Shown here: one piece after another, positions 3,336-20,620 of the stretch
How the letters are laid out: each line of letters opens with the position of its first letter
How positions within the stretch are numbered: the first letter of the stretch is position 1
Origin: a virus
Reading direction: 5' to 3' (one strand)
Virus record (IMG/VR): IMGVR_UViG_3300036839_000029
Coordinates: 1-21,387 of that record
Length of the DNA stretch: 21,387 bases
Notes under the pieces: generated by a model
The model's input: the letters and a program-made list of their open reading frames with translations, nothing else
The model's database searches: none
Told to the model about the DNA's origin: nothing
Position numbers and translations under genes: made by a program

Positions 3336-4131
3336 CCTCGACATCGTCCGCACCTGGGCGGTTCCCGTACGCGCCGTGGAGCCCGAGGAGGACGGCACGT
3401 TGGGGCTGATGGAGGTGCGGTTCTCCGTCTTCGACGCCTGGTACGAGATCGACTCCTGGTTCGAAGGGCGGTTCCTGGAGAAGACCGCCCGCGGCTCGTT
3501 CCGCAAGACGATCGCCGACCACCACGCCCGCAAGTCCGAGTCCGCCGGGGTGAAGGTGCTGTTCAACCACGGCCACGACTTCACCATCGGCGACAAGCTC
3601 CTCGGCGGCATCCGGGACCTGTCGGAGAAGAAAGACTCCCCACTCGGGCTGGTCGCCCTAGATGACACCTCCTACAACCGGGACCTGCTGCCCGGGTTGA
3701 AGCGGGGCGGGTACGGGTCGTCGTTCATGTTCCGGGTCATCCGCGACGAGTGGAACGACGAGCCCGGCAAATCCGACCACAACCCCGACGGTTTGCCGGA
3801 ACGCACCATCAAAGAGGTGCGGCTGTTCGAGTTCGGTCCGGTCACCTGGCCGGCTAACCCGGACGCCACCGCCGGGATGCGTTGCGCGTCCGGCACCGAC
3901 GCCTACTACACCAGCTTGCGCAGCCGCGACCCGCAACGGGTCGAGCAGCTGCGATCGCGCGTCCACGCGCTTCGCACCCCGCCGTCCGACGCCGCCCCCA
4001 CGGGCACCTCGGCCGGCAGCGCCGCGACTGAACCACCGACCGCGCCGGCTTCCAGCCACCCGGACGGACGAGCGTTCGCGCACCTGCGCGCACGCGACCT
4101 CTATCTGATGGAACTGGAGGGCGTCCGATGA
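3319..4131 (+). CDS. Prohead protease (peptidase S78 family)
   Basis: This maturation protease cleaves the scaffold-like N-terminus of the capsid protein and itself inside the prohead. The protein is 270 aa. Candidate active-site residues are His in VLFNHGHD (84 or 86), Ser in GSSFMFRV (134 or 135) and the acidic LFEFGPVTWPANPDA segment (Glu about 171), the order known for herpesvirus-like S78 proteases. The region after about residue 195 is low-complexity Ala/Thr/Pro/Ser and probably a disposable tail. GTG 3319 has AAGGAGG at 3307-3313 and overlaps the portal gene by 17 nt; the stop overlaps the capsid ATG by 4 nt, which fits translational coupling. Confidence 0.93.
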   Translation: MQTLPDLDIVRTWAVPVRAVEPEEDGTLGLMEVRFSVFDAWYEIDSWFEGRFLEKTARGSFRKTIADHHARKSESAGVKVLFNHGHDFTIGDKLLGGIRDLSEKKDSPLGLVALDDTSYNRDLLPGLKRGGYGSSFMFRVIRDEWNDEPGKSDHNPDGLPERTIKEVRLFEFGPVTWPANPDATAGMRCASGTDAYYTSLRSRDPQRVEQLRSRVHALRTPPSDAAPTGTSAGSAATEPPTAPASSHPDGRAFAHLRARDLYLMELEGVR

Positions 4132-5564
4132 CGCTGGAAGAGCTCCGCGCCGCGCTGTCGCAGGCCGCGGAAGAGCTCCGCAGCCTGCACGCCGAGATCG
4201 GCGACAACGTGCCGACCGACGAGCAGGCCACCAAGTGGGACGAGACGAAGGCCCGGCACGCCAAGGCCAAGTCCGACCTGGAAGCCGCTGAGGCGCGGGC
4301 GAACGAGCGGCGTTCGTTCGTCGCCGACCTGCCGACCAGCCGGCCCGCCGCGGCGCGCACCGAGTCCGGCGACGCGCCCCGGCACGCCCCGAACGTCAAC
4401 ATCCGCCGCGACCCCTACGACCTGCTGGAGTCCCGCGGCCACGGCATGACGGGCCGGGAGTTCGCCAAGACCGCCACCGATGCGATCCTGCGCTCCAACG
4501 AACACCGGATCGACGACGCGGAAAACCAGGCGCACTTCGAGCGGATGGTGCGCCGGTTCGCCGGTGGCCGGGAGTGGGCGCTGGGGATCCTGGGCCGGTC
4601 GCACGAGGACTACGAGTCGGCGTTCTACAAGCTGATGGTGGGGCGGGCGGAGATGCTCACCGCCGAGGAGCGCACCGCCGCGCAGGTAGGCTCCAACCCG
4701 CTCGGCGGCTACCTGGTGCCCACCCACCTCGACCCGACGATCATCCTCACCAACTCGGGCTCGAGCAACGCGATGCGGCAGATCTCCCGGGTGGTGCAGC
4801 TGACCGAGGGCAACGTGTGGAACGGCGTCACCAGCGCCGGTGTGACCGCGTCTTTCGACGCCGAACTGACCGAGGTGTCGGACGACACGCCGACGTTCGG
4901 CAACCCGACGGTCACCCTGAACACGGCCAAGTCGCTGGTGCAGGCGACCATCGAAACGTTCCGGGACACCAACCTGGCCTCGGACGTGATGATGCTGTTC
5001 GCCGACGCCCGGGACCGGCTCGAAGGCTCCAAGTTCATGACCGGCTCGGGCACGAACGAGCCGCGCGGCATTTTCACCGCGCTGGACGCCAACACCAACG
5101 TGGAGATCACCTCCACGACGGCGGCGACGATCGGCACCGTGGACCTGCACTCGGTGTACCGGCAGGTGCCGTTCCGGTGGCGGTCCCGGTCGCGGTGGCT
5201 GATGGCCCCCGTCTACAACCTGGCCATCAAGTCGCTCGGCACCGCCGTGTCCGCGTCCTATTCGACTGATCTGACGCAGGCCCCGGCCGATTTCATCCTC
5301 GGCCGGCCGGTCACCGAGTCCGACGACGCGCCGACCACCCAGACCACCACCGCGCTGGACAACGAACTGGCCCTCGGCGACTTCTCCAACTACGTGATCG
5401 TCGACAAGCCCGGCTCGATGGCGGTCGAGTTCATCCCGCACCTGTTCTCCACCACCACGAACCTGCCCGACGGCCGGCGCGGCTGGTACGCCTACTGGTC
5501 GACCGGCGGCAACAGCGTGAACGACGTCGCGTTCCGGCTGTTGCAGGACAAGACCAGCGCATAA
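4128..5564 (+). CDS. Major capsid protein (HK97 fold)
   Basis: A 478-aa protein that builds the icosahedral shell. Residues about 1-60 are charged, heptad-like and helical, matching the delta/scaffold domain that the upstream protease removes; the linker (about 62-90) is Pro/Arg/Ala-rich. The rest reads as an HK97 capsid core: a GGYLVP segment (about 194-199) at the start of the N-arm, the TSAGVTASFDAE region of the E-loop, GSGTNEPRG (about 305-313) in the P-domain, and the ending FRLLQDKTSA. The ATG has GGAGGG at about 4116-4121. It is followed by the only non-coding gap in the head operon, which holds a strong RNA structure, as expected where capsid output must exceed that of downstream genes. 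Confidence 0.95.
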   Translation: MTLEELRAALSQAAEELRSLHAEIGDNVPTDEQATKWDETKARHAKAKSDLEAAEARANERRSFVADLPTSRPAAARTESGDAPRHAPNVNIRRDPYDLLESRGHGMTGREFAKTATDAILRSNEHRIDDAENQAHFERMVRRFAGGREWALGILGRSHEDYESAFYKLMVGRAEMLTAEERTAAQVGSNPLGGYLVPTHLDPTIILTNSGSSNAMRQISRVVQLTEGNVWNGVTSAGVTASFDAELTEVSDDTPTFGNPTVTLNTAKSLVQATIETFRDTNLASDVMMLFADARDRLEGSKFMTGSGTNEPRGIFTALDANTNVEITSTTAATIGTVDLHSVYRQVPFRWRSRSRWLMAPVYNLAIKSLGTAVSASYSTDLTQAPADFILGRPVTESDDAPTTQTTTALDNELALGDFSNYVIVDKPGSMAVEFIPHLFSTTTNLPDGRRGWYAYWSTGGNSVNDVAFRLLQDKTSA

Positions 5565-5571
5565 CTGAGAC

Positions 5572-5638
5572 CGGAAGGGCCGGGACCTTCGCAGGGCACC
5601 CGGCCCTTCCGCATGCCCTGCGGCGCCCTGCGAAGGAG
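5572..5638 (+). promoter_or_regulatory. Hairpin with loop complementary to the next gene's ribosome binding site
   Basis: Stem 1 is a perfect 13-bp hairpin (5572-5584 with 5599-5611; inner arms GGAAGGGCCGGG and CCCGGCCCTTCC) with a 14-nt loop. The loop sequence CCTTCGCAGGGC (5586-5597) is the exact reverse complement of GCCCTGCGAAGG (5625-5636), which runs into the Shine-Dalgarno AAGGAG (5633-5638) of the gene at 5645. A second partial copy, GCCCTGCG (5615-5622), gives the loop another partner. The two stems have H-type pseudoknot topology, although the 1-nt connectors make full simultaneous pairing strained, so a two-state switch is also possible. Stem 1 has no following T-run. I infer control of expression between the abundant capsid protein and low-need downstream genes. 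Confidence 0.7.
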
Positions 5639-5644
5639 ACATCA

Positions 5645-5896
5645 ATGGTCAAGTACGTGCGTGTGAAGCAGCCCGCCTGTGCCCTGCGGCATCCGGAGCA
5701 CGGCGGCATCATCGTCCCGGACCCGGCGATCCCGTGGCGGGAAGACGACCCGCTGGTGAAGGCGTTCCCGTGGCAGTTCGCCGCCGACGACGAGATCGGC
5801 GCGGAACGGGAGAAGCCGGCCCCCGACTCGGTGCAGATCGAGCAGGCCACCAAAGCCCCGGGCGAGAAGCGCGCCTACCGCCGCCGCGCCCAGTGA
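5645..5896 (+). CDS. Small head-region protein of unknown function
   Basis: An 83-aa soluble protein beginning at ATG 5645, 6 nt after AAGGAG. The first half (about 1-50) is compact, with two Cys-poor beta-like stretches and IIVPDPAIPWREDDPLVKAF; the second half is charged and ends in the basic AYRRRAQ. Short proteins of this type commonly sit right after the capsid gene in actinophages, but I do not recognise a specific family or function. Its Shine-Dalgarno is inside the structured RNA element upstream, so its translation, and that of the coupled glycosyltransferase behind it (4-nt overlap), may be regulated by that structure. A role in head stabilisation or as a glycosylation accessory is only a guess from context. 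Confidence 0.75.
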   Translation: MVKYVRVKQPACALRHPEHGGIIVPDPAIPWREDDPLVKAFPWQFAADDEIGAEREKPAPDSVQIEQATKAPGEKRAYRRRAQ

Positions 5897-7314
5897 CCGA
5901 CACAGTTGTCGTCGGCTACCTCGACGACGGGCACTGGTCTGCCTGTTTCGGCCTGTCCTACCGGGACCTGCTGCTCGCCGACGCCAGCACGCAGCGCCGG
6001 ATTGTGCGGCCGGGCGGCACAGAGCTGCGGCAGGTGTGCGGCACCGGCGGCATCCCCGCCGGCCGCAACTCGGTGGTGAAGGGGTTCCTGGACGACACGG
6101 ACGCCGACTGGCTGTTCATGGTTGACACCGACATGGGTTTCGCTGCGGACACCGTCGAAGCGCTGCTGGCCGCGGCCGATCCGGTGCAGCGGCCGGTGGT
6201 CGGCGCGTTGTGTTTCGCGTTGAAGCGCACCGAATCCGGCAACCCGGCGACCCTGTTCGCGGAGCGGTGGCGGATCGCGCCAACAGTGTTCCTGCTGCAC
6301 GAGATCCCCGACCGGCAGGAAGTCGGGATGCGGCCCGTCTACGACTACCCGCGTGACGCGCTCGTCCAAGTCCACGCCACCGGCGCGGCGTGCCTGCTGA
6401 TCCACCGGGACATCGCGTCGAAGATCCGCGCCGAAACAGGCGACAACTGGTTCGACCCGATCACCCACCCGACCGGCGACGGCGGTAAGCCCCGCGCGTT
6501 CTCTGAGGATCTGTCGTTCTGCCTTCGCGTCGGCCGGCACGCCCCGGTGTACGTGCACACCGGGGTGAAGACCTGCCACGAGAAGGGCGGCATCTTCCTC
6601 GACGAGTTCGCTTTCGACCGGCAGGAAAACCAGCACACCCCGGCGCCGCGGATCGCGTTGGTGTGCCCGACCCGTAACCGGGTGCGGCAGGTCGAGCAGA
6701 TGGTCCAGTCGGCGATGGCCACCGCGGCGGGGCCGGTCGAAGTGGTGCTGTACGCCGACGACGACGCCCCGCTGCCGGACAGGTTCTCCAAAACCCGCGG
6801 TGTGACGGTGGTGACCGGGCCGCGGATCCTGCTCTCCGAAGCGTGGAACACCGCCGCCGGGCTTGCGTCGGCGGACATCCTGATGCACTGCGGCGACGAC
6901 ATCGTGTTCCGCACACCCGGCTGGGATGAGCGGGTGGTGCGCGAGTTCGCGAAGGTGCCAGACCGGATTGTGTTCGTGCACGGCAACGACCTGCTGCAGG
7001 GCCCGAATCTGGGCACACACGGATTCCTGCACCGGCGTTGGGTCGACGCGGTCGGCTACCTGGTGCCGCCGCACTTCTCGTCCGACTACAACGACACCTG
7101 GCTGACCGAAGTCGCCGACAAGCTCGGCCGCAGGGTGTATCTGCCGGATGTGGTGACCGAACACATGCACCCGCTGGCCGGGAAGGCCGAGTGGGATCTG
7201 ACGCACCGGGAGCGGCTGGAACGGCACAAGGCCGACGACGTCGACCAGCTGTACAAGCAGCTGGCGGCGCAGCGGGAAGCCGACGTGGCGAAGCTGCGGG
7301 CGGTGATGTCGTGA
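5893..7314 (+). CDS. Two-domain glycosyltransferase (GT-A-like, duplicated)
   Basis: From GTG 5893 (overlapping the previous stop) the protein is 473 aa. Two glycosyltransferase-like halves are visible. The first (about 1-245) has an Asn-containing PAGRNSVV segment and FMVDTDMGF (DTD at 78-80) as a metal-binding DxD motif, then SEDLSFC (about 204-210), the acidic position typical of the catalytic base. The second (about 250-473) begins LVCPTRNRV, a GT2-style start, has LYADDDAP (about 286-293), CGDDIVF (about 333-339) and DYNDTWL (about 398-404). It should transfer an activated sugar to an unknown acceptor. The next gene encodes a nucleotide-sugar dehydrogenase, so the donor may be an oxidised sugar. 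Its place between capsid and connector genes argues for virion protein glycosylation rather than DNA modification. Substrate and acceptor are unknown. Confidence 0.85.
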   Translation: MTDTVVVGYLDDGHWSACFGLSYRDLLLADASTQRRIVRPGGTELRQVCGTGGIPAGRNSVVKGFLDDTDADWLFMVDTDMGFAADTVEALLAAADPVQRPVVGALCFALKRTESGNPATLFAERWRIAPTVFLLHEIPDRQEVGMRPVYDYPRDALVQVHATGAACLLIHRDIASKIRAETGDNWFDPITHPTGDGGKPRAFSEDLSFCLRVGRHAPVYVHTGVKTCHEKGGIFLDEFAFDRQENQHTPAPRIALVCPTRNRVRQVEQMVQSAMATAAGPVEVVLYADDDAPLPDRFSKTRGVTVVTGPRILLSEAWNTAAGLASADILMHCGDDIVFRTPGWDERVVREFAKVPDRIVFVHGNDLLQGPNLGTHGFLHRRWVDAVGYLVPPHFSSDYNDTWLTEVADKLGRRVYLPDVVTEHMHPLAGKAEWDLTHRERLERHKADDVDQLYKQLAAQREADVAKLRAVMS

Positions 7315-8540
7315 ACGTCGGCTGGATCGGGCTGGGGAAACTCGGCTTCACGTGCGCCGCCGTCCTGTCGGACCGCGGTCACGACGTGGCCGGCTACGAC
7401 GTTCGCGGCCTGCTAGACGGCGAACTTCCCGTGCCCGAGTACGAGGCCGGGTTCGCCGAGTTGGACAAGTCCCGGCTGCTGACGCATCCGTCGATCGCCG
7501 GCGTCGTCGAGGCGGCCGAGCTCGTGTTCGTGGCGGTGCAAACCCCACACGCGCCCGCGTACGGCGGGGAAACCCCGGCGCCGCAGCAGCGGCGGGATTT
7601 CGAGTACGGCTACCTGGTGTCGGCGGTGCGGGACGTGTGCGACGCCGTCGCCGAGCTCGGCCGGCACACCACGGTGGTGGTGGTTTCCACGGTTCTGCCG
7701 GGCACCTGTGACAGGCTACTTCGGCCGCTGCTCAACCAGTGGACGACGCTGGTGTACAACCCGTTCTTCATCGCCATGGGCACCACCGTCGAAGACTTCC
7801 TCAACCCAGAGTTCGTGCTGCTGGGCTGCGACCGGCCGGCTGACGCGGAACCTGTCCAGCGGTTGTACCGCACCTTGCACGACCGGCCGCATCAGGTCAT
7901 GTCGATCCCGTCAGCGGAGCTGGCCAAGGTTTCCTACAACACGTTCATCTCCATGAAGATCGTGTGGGCGAACGCGTTGATGGAGATCGCGCACAAGACC
8001 GGAGCGGACTGCGACGCCGTGGTTGACGCGCTGAGCTTGGCCACCGACCGGGTCGTCAGCCCGAAGTATCTGCGTGGCGGGATGGGCGACGGCGGGCACT
8101 GCCACCCCCGCGACCTGATCGCGATGTCGTGGCTCGCGCAACGGCTGGACCTGTCGTACGACCTGCTCGGCGAAATGGCCAAAGCCCGCGAAGCACAGTC
8201 GCAGTGGCTCGCCGAAGTCGTCCGCGGATGGTGCGACCAGACCGGGCTCAAGCCGTTCGTCATGGGCAGCGCGTACAAACCCGAGAGCCCGCTGACCGGC
8301 GGCAGTCCGGCGCTGCTGCTCGCCCACCAACTCGGCTGCGAGACGTGGGACCCGTTCGTCGGTGACGACGGGCTGCTACAACTGCGCAGCGTCGGGCAGC
8401 CGCACGTGTACGTGATCGGCACCCGGCATCCAGAGTTCGCCGACTACACCTGGCCGGCCGGCTCCGTGGTGATCGACCCGTGGGGATACATCCCCGACAA
8501 GGCAGGCGTCACCGTCATCCGACTCGGCCGCAAAACGTAG
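7311..8540 (+). CDS. UDP-glucose/nucleotide-sugar 6-dehydrogenase family enzyme
   Basis: A 409-aa member of the UDP-glucose/GDP-mannose dehydrogenase family, which makes uronic acid nucleotides by two NAD-dependent oxidations. The N-terminal Rossmann domain starts VGWIGLGKLG (GxGxxG, about 3-12); STVLPGT (126-132) follows. The central helix has AELAKVSYNTF (202-212; Lys206 and Asn210 at the conserved places). GGHCHPRD (261-268) supplies the catalytic Cys264, and GSAYKPESP (319-327) matches the C-terminal domain motif. The usual PEF segment that provides a catalytic Glu reads NPFFIAMG (150-157) here, so the substrate or rate may differ from a standard UDP-glucose dehydrogenase. The start is GTG 7311, 4-nt overlap with the glycosyltransferase; the pair is surely co-translated. 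Confidence 0.9.
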   Translation: MNVGWIGLGKLGFTCAAVLSDRGHDVAGYDVRGLLDGELPVPEYEAGFAELDKSRLLTHPSIAGVVEAAELVFVAVQTPHAPAYGGETPAPQQRRDFEYGYLVSAVRDVCDAVAELGRHTTVVVVSTVLPGTCDRLLRPLLNQWTTLVYNPFFIAMGTTVEDFLNPEFVLLGCDRPADAEPVQRLYRTLHDRPHQVMSIPSAELAKVSYNTFISMKIVWANALMEIAHKTGADCDAVVDALSLATDRVVSPKYLRGGMGDGGHCHPRDLIAMSWLAQRLDLSYDLLGEMAKAREAQSQWLAEVVRGWCDQTGLKPFVMGSAYKPESPLTGGSPALLLAHQLGCETWDPFVGDDGLLQLRSVGQPHVYVIGTRHPEFADYTWPAGSVVIDPWGYIPDKAGVTVIRLGRKT

Positions 8541-20308: not shown

Positions 20309-20384
20309 GGCGCGGTGGAGGAGTTCGGTCGTCCTCGCGGCCCTCATAAGGCCGAGAACGCAGGTTCGAATCCTGCCCGCGCAA
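20309..20384 (+). tRNA. tRNA with CAU anticodon (Met-type, initiator-like)
   Basis: A full 76-nt cloverleaf can be folded. Acceptor GCGCGG (20310-20315) pairs with CCGCGC (20377-20382); the first pair is a G20309/A20383 mismatch. The D stem is GAGG/CCTC (20318-20321, 20333-20336), the anticodon stem CGGCC/GGCCG (20338-20342, 20350-20354) with loop CTCATAA and anticodon CAT at 20345-20347, and the T arm is GCAGG-TTCGAAT-CCTGC (20360-20376). The discriminator is A20384; CCA is not encoded (CGA follows). A missing 1:72 pair and A11:U24 are bacterial initiator features, as is the UG at positions 8-9, but the three stacked G:C pairs of the initiator anticodon stem are absent. Confidence 0.88.
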
Positions 20385-20385
20385 C

Positions 20386-20449
20386 GATCCCCGGCCCGTC
20401 CTCTGGGTGGAAGGCCGGGCCGGGATCACTCCACCCACCAAAAGGAGGA
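20386..20449 (+). promoter_or_regulatory. Post-tRNA hairpin with loop complementary to the next Shine-Dalgarno region
   Basis: GATCCC/GGGATC and GGCCCG/CGGGCC (arms within 20386-20398 and 20416-20427) form a 12-bp hairpin with one bulged C, right after the tRNA. The loop strand 20399-20411 (TCCTCTGGGTGGA) can instead pair downstream: TGGGTGGA with TCCACCCA (20430-20437) and TCCTC with GAGGA (20445-20449), the latter in the AAAAGGAGG site of the gene at 20453. The layout parallels the element after the capsid gene. It could also act simply as a terminator or tRNA 3' processing signal, but no T-run follows. Confidence 0.5.
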
Positions 20450-20452
20450 CTC

Positions 20453-20620
20453 ATGAAGATCGCCAAGGCGCTCGTGGCGTCCGCAATCGCCGGCTTGACC
20501 GCGCTCGGCCAGGCACTCACCGATGACAGGGTGACCGGCCAGGAGTGGATCGTCGTCGCCATCGCGGTGCTCGCCGGGCTCGGCGTCACCTACGCCGTGC
20601 CGAACAGGCCGACGCCCTAG
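20453..20620 (+). CDS. Small membrane protein, holin-like
   Basis: A 55-aa protein starting at ATG 20453 with a strong AAAAGGAGG 4 nt upstream. Residues 1-18 (MKIAKALVASAIAGLTAL) form an amphipathic or membrane helix and about 34-48 (WIVVAIAVLAGLGVTYAV) a second hydrophobic helix, separated by DDRVTGQE; the tail is PNRPTP. Short two-helix proteins of this pattern end the lysis region in many actinophages and are usually called holins or left unnamed. It is the last plus-strand gene before the terminators. Function as holin is inferred from topology and place only. Confidence 0.75.
   Translation: MKIAKALVASAIAGLTALGQALTDDRVTGQEWIVVAIAVLAGLGVTYAVPNRPTP

Follow-up and report, generated by a model that had tools for sequence, protein, structure and literature searches.

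How does a tailed phage obtain hundreds of copies of its capsid protein, as against about a dozen of its connector, from adjacent genes? The post-transcriptional setting of this ratio is poorly known in double-stranded DNA (dsDNA) phages. Here we analyse an element at the capsid/connector boundary of a 21,387-base viral record (IMG/VR record IMGVR_UViG_3300036839_000029; hereafter the window), where a GC-rich hairpin stands between the major capsid gene and a small connector-like gene and carries a loop complementary to the Shine-Dalgarno (SD) region of the latter. A covarying element sits at this boundary across the lineage. Paired changes have preserved its loop match during evolution, so the element is probably a genuine switch or brake that acts on translation of the post-capsid gene in an uncultured, actinobacterial-type phage lineage. 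The element and the genes beside it are composed as follows.

4128–5564, plus strand: major capsid protein gene, HK97 fold (Phage_capsid PF05065, E 8.7e-32; PHROG 10); its stop codon, TAA (5562–5564), lies 7 nucleotides (nt) 5´ of the stem.
5572–5584, plus strand: 5´ strand of stem 1, CGGAAGGGCCGGG, supported by the sequence, by the fold and by compensatory changes in stem 1 in close relatives.
5586–5597, plus strand: loop anti-repeat CCTTCGCAGGGC, the 5´ strand of stem 2, supported by the sequence and by spacer complementarity at 87 loci.
5599–5611, plus strand: 3´ strand of stem 1, CCCGGCCCTTCCG, from the sequence.
5614–5622, plus strand: first, stem-proximal repeat TGCCCTGCG, a 9-bp alternative partner 2 nt past stem 1.
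5625–5636, plus strand: second, SD-proximal repeat GCCCTGCGAAGG, a 12-bp partner 13 nt past stem 1 that overlaps the AAGG of the SD.
5633–5638, plus strand: SD of the next gene, AAGGAG, from the sequence.
5645–5896, plus strand: small gene of 83 amino acids, head-tail connector-like by its family link to PHROG 9538; the element travels with this gene.
5893–7314, plus strand: glycosyltransferase-like gene, the GTG start of which overlaps the stop of the small gene.

By direct reading of the sequence, the 13 bp of stem 1 contain no mismatch and enclose a loop at 5585–5598, of which 12 nt, the anti-repeat, are the exact reverse complement of the SD-proximal repeat; the ATG of the next gene follows at 5645. 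The motif GCCCTGCG is present twice (5615–5622 and 5625–5632), and the upstream copy provides the alternative partner for the loop. The stem, the loop match, the repeat and all of their coordinates had been given in a preliminary description of this DNA and proved exact. The computed helix energies in the window are −29.3 kcal/mol for stem 1 (S1), and −17.5 and −24.6 kcal/mol for stem 2 (S2) formed with repeat 1 and repeat 2, respectively. Folding of 5555–5660 with a program that has no pseudoknot capability returns stem 1 (z = −2.98). The loop L1 of the window is a single nucleotide that would have to span the 12-bp S2, and given this length all 12 pairs are not likely to form at once. None of 60 dinucleotide shuffles of the window yielded a hairpin with a stem of ≥10 bp and a loop that finds a match of ≥8 nt in the 40 nt that follow, in line with the earlier claim that both pairings would seldom arise together by chance. 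This argument from one sequence is surpassed by the relatives, since the complementarity recurs there with different sequences.

The spacers 3´ of the capsid gene were taken from all fetched relatives, duplicates were removed and the best hairpin was kept for each locus. Loci were scored by the longest exact inverted match of the hairpin loop within the spacer, which was read as far as the next start codon. Some of these starts and hairpins come from automatic assignment, and a few of them are wrong; at L032, for example, the hairpin finder chose the wrong hairpin, and the 9-nt match belongs to a second one further down. When the loci are anchored on the capsid gene (window's capsid lineage, n = 92), the mean match is 6.32 nt, compared with 4.54 for shuffled spacers (standard deviation 0.10, maximum 4.88), 4.24 for swapped loops and 3.65 for matches in direct orientation; 54 loci reach at least 7 nt, where 5.5 are expected. 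Anchoring on the small gene (n = 87 distinct loci) raises the mean to 6.75 nt, against 4.75 for shuffled spacers (maximum of 300, 5.03), 4.48 for loops swapped between loci (maximum 4.83) and 3.63 on the same strand, and 57 loci have at least 7 nt (6.7 expected). Loops that lack CAGG still score 5.40 versus 4.17 (n = 55). A sister capsid lineage of the Gordonia/Mycobacterium-phage type, our control, has a hairpin and a homologous small gene and displays no excess pairing (3.86 versus 3.75, n = 50); the same holds for subclade Q247 (4.08 versus 3.93), in which the downstream gene is mostly different. The pairing trait clusters on the capsid tree, with about 20 gains or losses compared with 50 for shuffled labels.

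The loop and its partner change together. The sequences are too divergent for one joint alignment of the lineage, and the pairing is retained in widely different letters: GCAGGGC/GCCCTGC, GGCAGGA/TCCTGCC, GACAGGC/GCCTGTC, GGTGGGC/GCCCACC and TCCCGTT/AACGGGA, as well as TTGACGGC/GCCGTCAA, TGCGCGGT/ACCGCGCA, CTTGATCCGA/TCGGATCA, CCTTCCGG/CCGGAAGG and GACTCCGG/CCGGAGTC. Near neighbours on the tree differ by 53 compensatory double changes, where 14.9 are expected (maximum of 500, 23), and by 86 broken pairs, where 153 are expected. Locus L059, for instance, has CCTAGAT/ATCTAGG and L070 has CCTAGAC/GTCTAGG, and between L065 (GGCAGGC) and L068 (GACAGGC) both repeats change along with the loop. On alignment A7, the two helices taken together score 0.209 for covariation versus 0.073, and 11 pairs have changed at both positions versus 4.1; on alignment A8, stem 2 taken by itself scores 0.166 versus 0.041. 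Neither score is reached in 500 shuffles. Sliding the register, a control that removes relatedness as the A7 and A8 shuffles do not, yields at most 0.076 (A7) and 0.093 (A8). The compensatory changes in both arms that the preliminary description had proposed to look for in relatives are therefore present, and its pairing of the loop with the SD region of the next gene is borne out by complementarity and covariation alike. An H-type pseudoknot is recognized by a loop complementary to sequence 3´ of its hairpin together with covariation, and both are found here.

A strong GC hairpin placed where a highly expressed gene ends could also be an intrinsic transcription terminator or attenuator, and terminators without U-tracts are conceivable in actinobacteria. 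However, a run of at least four T within 12 nt past stem 1 occurs at 0 of 62 loci, the window contains no terminator-like site, and the loop partners lie downstream, so that they exist only on RNA that has not been terminated. We consider this explanation very improbable.

To which gene does the element belong? The gene order in the window is capsid, small gene, glycosyltransferase, a UDP-glucose dehydrogenase-like gene and connector. At six loci, an extra gene (HNH-type, recombinase-like or another small gene) stands between the capsid gene and the small gene, and 434–1,051 nt then separate the element from the stop of the capsid gene; it adjoins the small gene as before, 3–15 nt past the stop of the inserted gene at five loci and 49 nt past it at one. 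The element keeps its place beside the small gene despite insertions behind the capsid gene, and so qualifies as a leader of the former rather than a 3´ element of the latter. The pairing is located at the SD and remains with the connector-like gene. HNH-type genes are often found directly after the capsid stop in both lineages (L031, L046, L309, L201, L080, L263 and others), which may mark a homing hot spot adjoining the element. At L032, L041 and L048, a plain hairpin behind the capsid gene is accompanied by a separate loop/repeat element further down; this layout suggests that a capsid 3´ hairpin and a connector leader are separable and are merged into one stem in the window.

The distance from stop to stem ranges from 4 to 55 nt and is 10 nt or less in only 20 of 56 spacers. 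The preliminary description had a ribosome that finishes the capsid gene reach into stem 1; these spacers and the displaced elements argue against a switch specific to capsid ribosomes as a conserved trait. The same figures bear on a pseudoknot that would stimulate frameshifting or readthrough at the capsid stop to give a C-terminally extended capsid protein. Some capsid genes do use frameshift signals with downstream structure, such as T7 10A/10B and that of Listeria phage PSA, and, the DNA being GC-rich, open frames beyond the stop are common. The variable spacing, a small gene that occupies all three frames relative to the capsid gene (26/19/11) and displaced elements that follow the stops of other genes speak against such a fusion, which we regard as scarcely credible.

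The element might instead be chiefly a 3´-end or RNA-stability device of the capsid transcript, an exonuclease block or an RNase III-type site in the stacked S1 and S2, that uncouples the abundant capsid messenger RNA (mRNA) from the genes behind it, with secondary effects on the SD. Its position suits such a role, as a very abundant protein is encoded before it and low-copy ones after it; S1 and S2 would stack to about 20–25 bp, and the sister lineage also has stable GC hairpins after the capsid gene, so that a hairpin appears useful without the pairing. However, an exonuclease block needs the hairpin only and not covarying loop partners, the partners abut or overlap the SD, and gene insertions separate the element from the capsid gene and leave it beside the downstream one. 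We judge a stability device possible but rather unlikely.

The small gene points to the controlled unit. PHROG 9538 (head-tail connector) is matched by 33 of 47 members of the small-gene family, the window copy itself having E 0.093 only. The AlphaFold model of the protein has a pLDDT of 82; searches for it gave no significant fold match and no sequence relative in the PDB, and no convincing Pfam family. A glycosyltransferase directly follows the small gene at 78 of 78 lineage loci with enough sequence, whereas in the control lineage it does so at two of 68, one of which (L010) has the pairing. The constancy of this gene in the lineage and its near absence from the control make connector plus glycosyltransferase the probable unit of control. 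The preliminary description had the element set the ratio of capsid protein to the sugar enzymes and connector behind it; the unit present lineage-wide is the connector-like small gene with the glycosyltransferase, the second sugar enzyme was found in the window only, and an effect on the capsid-to-connector ratio is putative. The constant glycosyltransferase suggests virion glycosylation throughout the lineage. The UDP-glucose dehydrogenase-like gene (7311–8540) is part of the head-gene operon in the window and was not found at 71 other lineage loci examined.

In its general layout, the element consists of a GC hairpin with an anti-repeat in its loop, usually two tandem repeats complementary to the loop, and the SD. 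When the spacer alone was searched and the loop was left unused, direct repeats of at least 6 nt were found in 41 of 76 lineage members (7.9 expected) and in five of 39 members of the control lineage (2.1 expected). The repeat unit is complementary to the loop of its own locus in 40 of these 41, compared with 15.6 after loop swapping, which upholds the earlier suggestion that the repeat offers a second partner. The partner is duplicated in about two-thirds of the pairing loci, and the copies are mostly 7–14 nt apart, with a spacing centred on 9–11 nt.

S1 is mostly 10–16 bp, S2 is 6–12 bp and L1 is mostly 1–6 nt, as counted from lengths and not from a three-dimensional model. The loop L3 places the SD-proximal repeat 8–18 nt (27 nt at one locus) and the stem-proximal repeat mostly 0–7 nt (11 nt at one locus) past stem 1. 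By general pseudoknot geometry, a complete stem 1 leaves room for pairing of the SD-proximal copy alone, and the stem-proximal copy could pair only once stem 1 has opened at its base; by the loop lengths, we judge pairing of the SD-proximal repeat with an intact stem 1 feasible. The 3´ end of the last partner lies between 7 nt inside the SD and 16 nt before it, with a median of about 3 nt before.

Both the repeats and their inverted counterpart in the loop could instead be protein binding sites, for a repressor-like protein or an RNA-binding autoregulator, with the complementarity as a by-product of site symmetry. The regular spacing of the repeats fits such sites, a GCAGG core is nearly invariant within two subclades, and T4 gp32 sets the precedent of a protein bound to a pseudoknot plus repeats. 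The excess, however, is restricted to the inverted orientation (6.75 versus 3.63 direct), the inverted copy occupies a loop closed by a strong stem, and between lineages the complementarity is retained although the sequence itself is entirely exchanged. As an operator repeated elsewhere in the window, GCCCTGC/GCAGGGC is not obviously enriched outside the element. Binding sites as the sole explanation appear improbable to us; a protein that binds the folded RNA is possible.

With these alternatives in view, we favour, with reasonable confidence, a cis-acting pseudoknot with duplicated alternative 3´ partners that controls the start of connector/glycosyltransferase translation. The GC-rich stem 1 would present the loop anti-repeat, which would form an H-type pseudoknot with the downstream repeat beside or over the SD of the connector gene and so tune the access of ribosomes to it. 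The element would thereby set the frequency of initiation on the connector gene and, because start and stop codons overlap, on the glycosyltransferase gene too. We infer the action on translation, the sign of the effect and any switching. Where there is a single partner, stem 2 frequently extends into the SD, and this looks like sequestration. Where there are two, it is the distal one that adjoins the SD, and the proximal one could bring about its release. A two-state action is plausible: pairing with partner 2 would hinder the SD, whereas a ribosome that terminates on the gene upstream, for instance, could open stem 1 at its base, so that partner 1 pairs and the SD is left free. This unproven trigger fits the displaced cases and not the variable spacers; because five inserted genes end 3–15 nt before the stem, coupling to whichever gene is upstream is possible. 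With its duplicated partner, the element offers a clear switch model that lends itself to testing and, provided that the switch works, a compact module for use in actinobacterial hosts.

Several observations weigh against this pseudoknot. Stem 1 resembles the hairpins that follow capsid genes generally, so a role at mRNA 3´ ends is conceivable for some of the structure. About one-quarter of the lineage members with the small gene have no pairing of at least 6 nt and the sister lineage manages without it, so the pairing is not essential to such a gene. Many single-copy variants place the partner 3–6 nt from a stem of 12–16 bp, where we judge that stem 2 and the full stem 1 could not coexist. 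The conserved GCAGG core of many loops would suit a bound protein too. Finally, the loci are not independent because the lineage is related by descent, and shuffles and swaps remove this relatedness only in part; the control lineage and the counts of compensatory changes argue against an artefact of this kind.

Closest in logic are four known systems. In the IncI-alpha plasmid ColIb-P9, translation of repZ is coupled to the repY leader open reading frame and a pseudoknot activates it, and an activating effect is by analogy possible in the phages. The repZ leader, however, serves a plasmid replication gene regulated by antisense RNA, has no sequence relation to the phage element and has no duplicated tandem partner described. 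In T4, the gene 32 mRNA contains a pseudoknot 5´ of the SD with short repeats beside it, and the homing endonuclease gene segG was inserted just upstream while the pseudoknot stayed (PMC535899), much like the HNH-type insertions beside the phage element; the T4 pseudoknot nucleates gp32 binding and its repeats are unpaired UUAAA units, whereas the repeats described here are pairing partners. In MS2-type RNA phages, the start region of the gene behind the coat gene is closed by pairing and opened by coat-gene ribosomes (PMC9894550). The present element differs in that it is a local loop/SD pseudoknot in dsDNA phages, the distance from stop to stem is not conserved and coupling is only putative. 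A pseudoknot at the ribosome-binding site also controls initiation on Escherichia coli rpsO, which encodes S15 (PMC3858243), in contrast to which the phage element has duplicated alternative partners. As far as our reading went, which falls short of a complete literature review, none of repZ, T4 gene 32, MS2 and rpsO is reported to combine a loop anti-repeat with competing partners in duplicate, and no description of this element was found. It is a tentative, rather doubtful proposal that ribosomes leaving the upstream gene toggle one anti-repeat between two competing tandem partners and so set head-protein stoichiometry lineage-wide; the element would then be a dsDNA-phage equivalent of MS2 coat/replicase coupling, built on a previously undescribed architecture.

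The close relatives are contigs in IMG/VR, and isolate genomes appear, judging by record numbers, to be the source of several. GenBank phages, including those of Gordonia and Mycobacterium, contain only distant capsid relatives, none above 42% identity among the matches listed, and no match to the small gene. In 395 sampled genomes of the class Actinomycetes, prophages gave 14 capsid matches; the flanks were readable in three, all of control type and without the pairing. An Rfam search placed nothing above the gathering threshold at the element (chance-level hits only) and identified a single tRNA in the whole window. Directly behind tRNA-Met (20309–20385), a second hairpin is found at 20388–20455, which is only suggestive, with about 0.6 such matches per strand expected by chance. 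Its loop TGGGTGGA matches TCCACCCA (20430–20437), just before AAAAGGAGG and the ATG at 20453 of a 55-amino-acid membrane-like protein that has no match in the phage collection.
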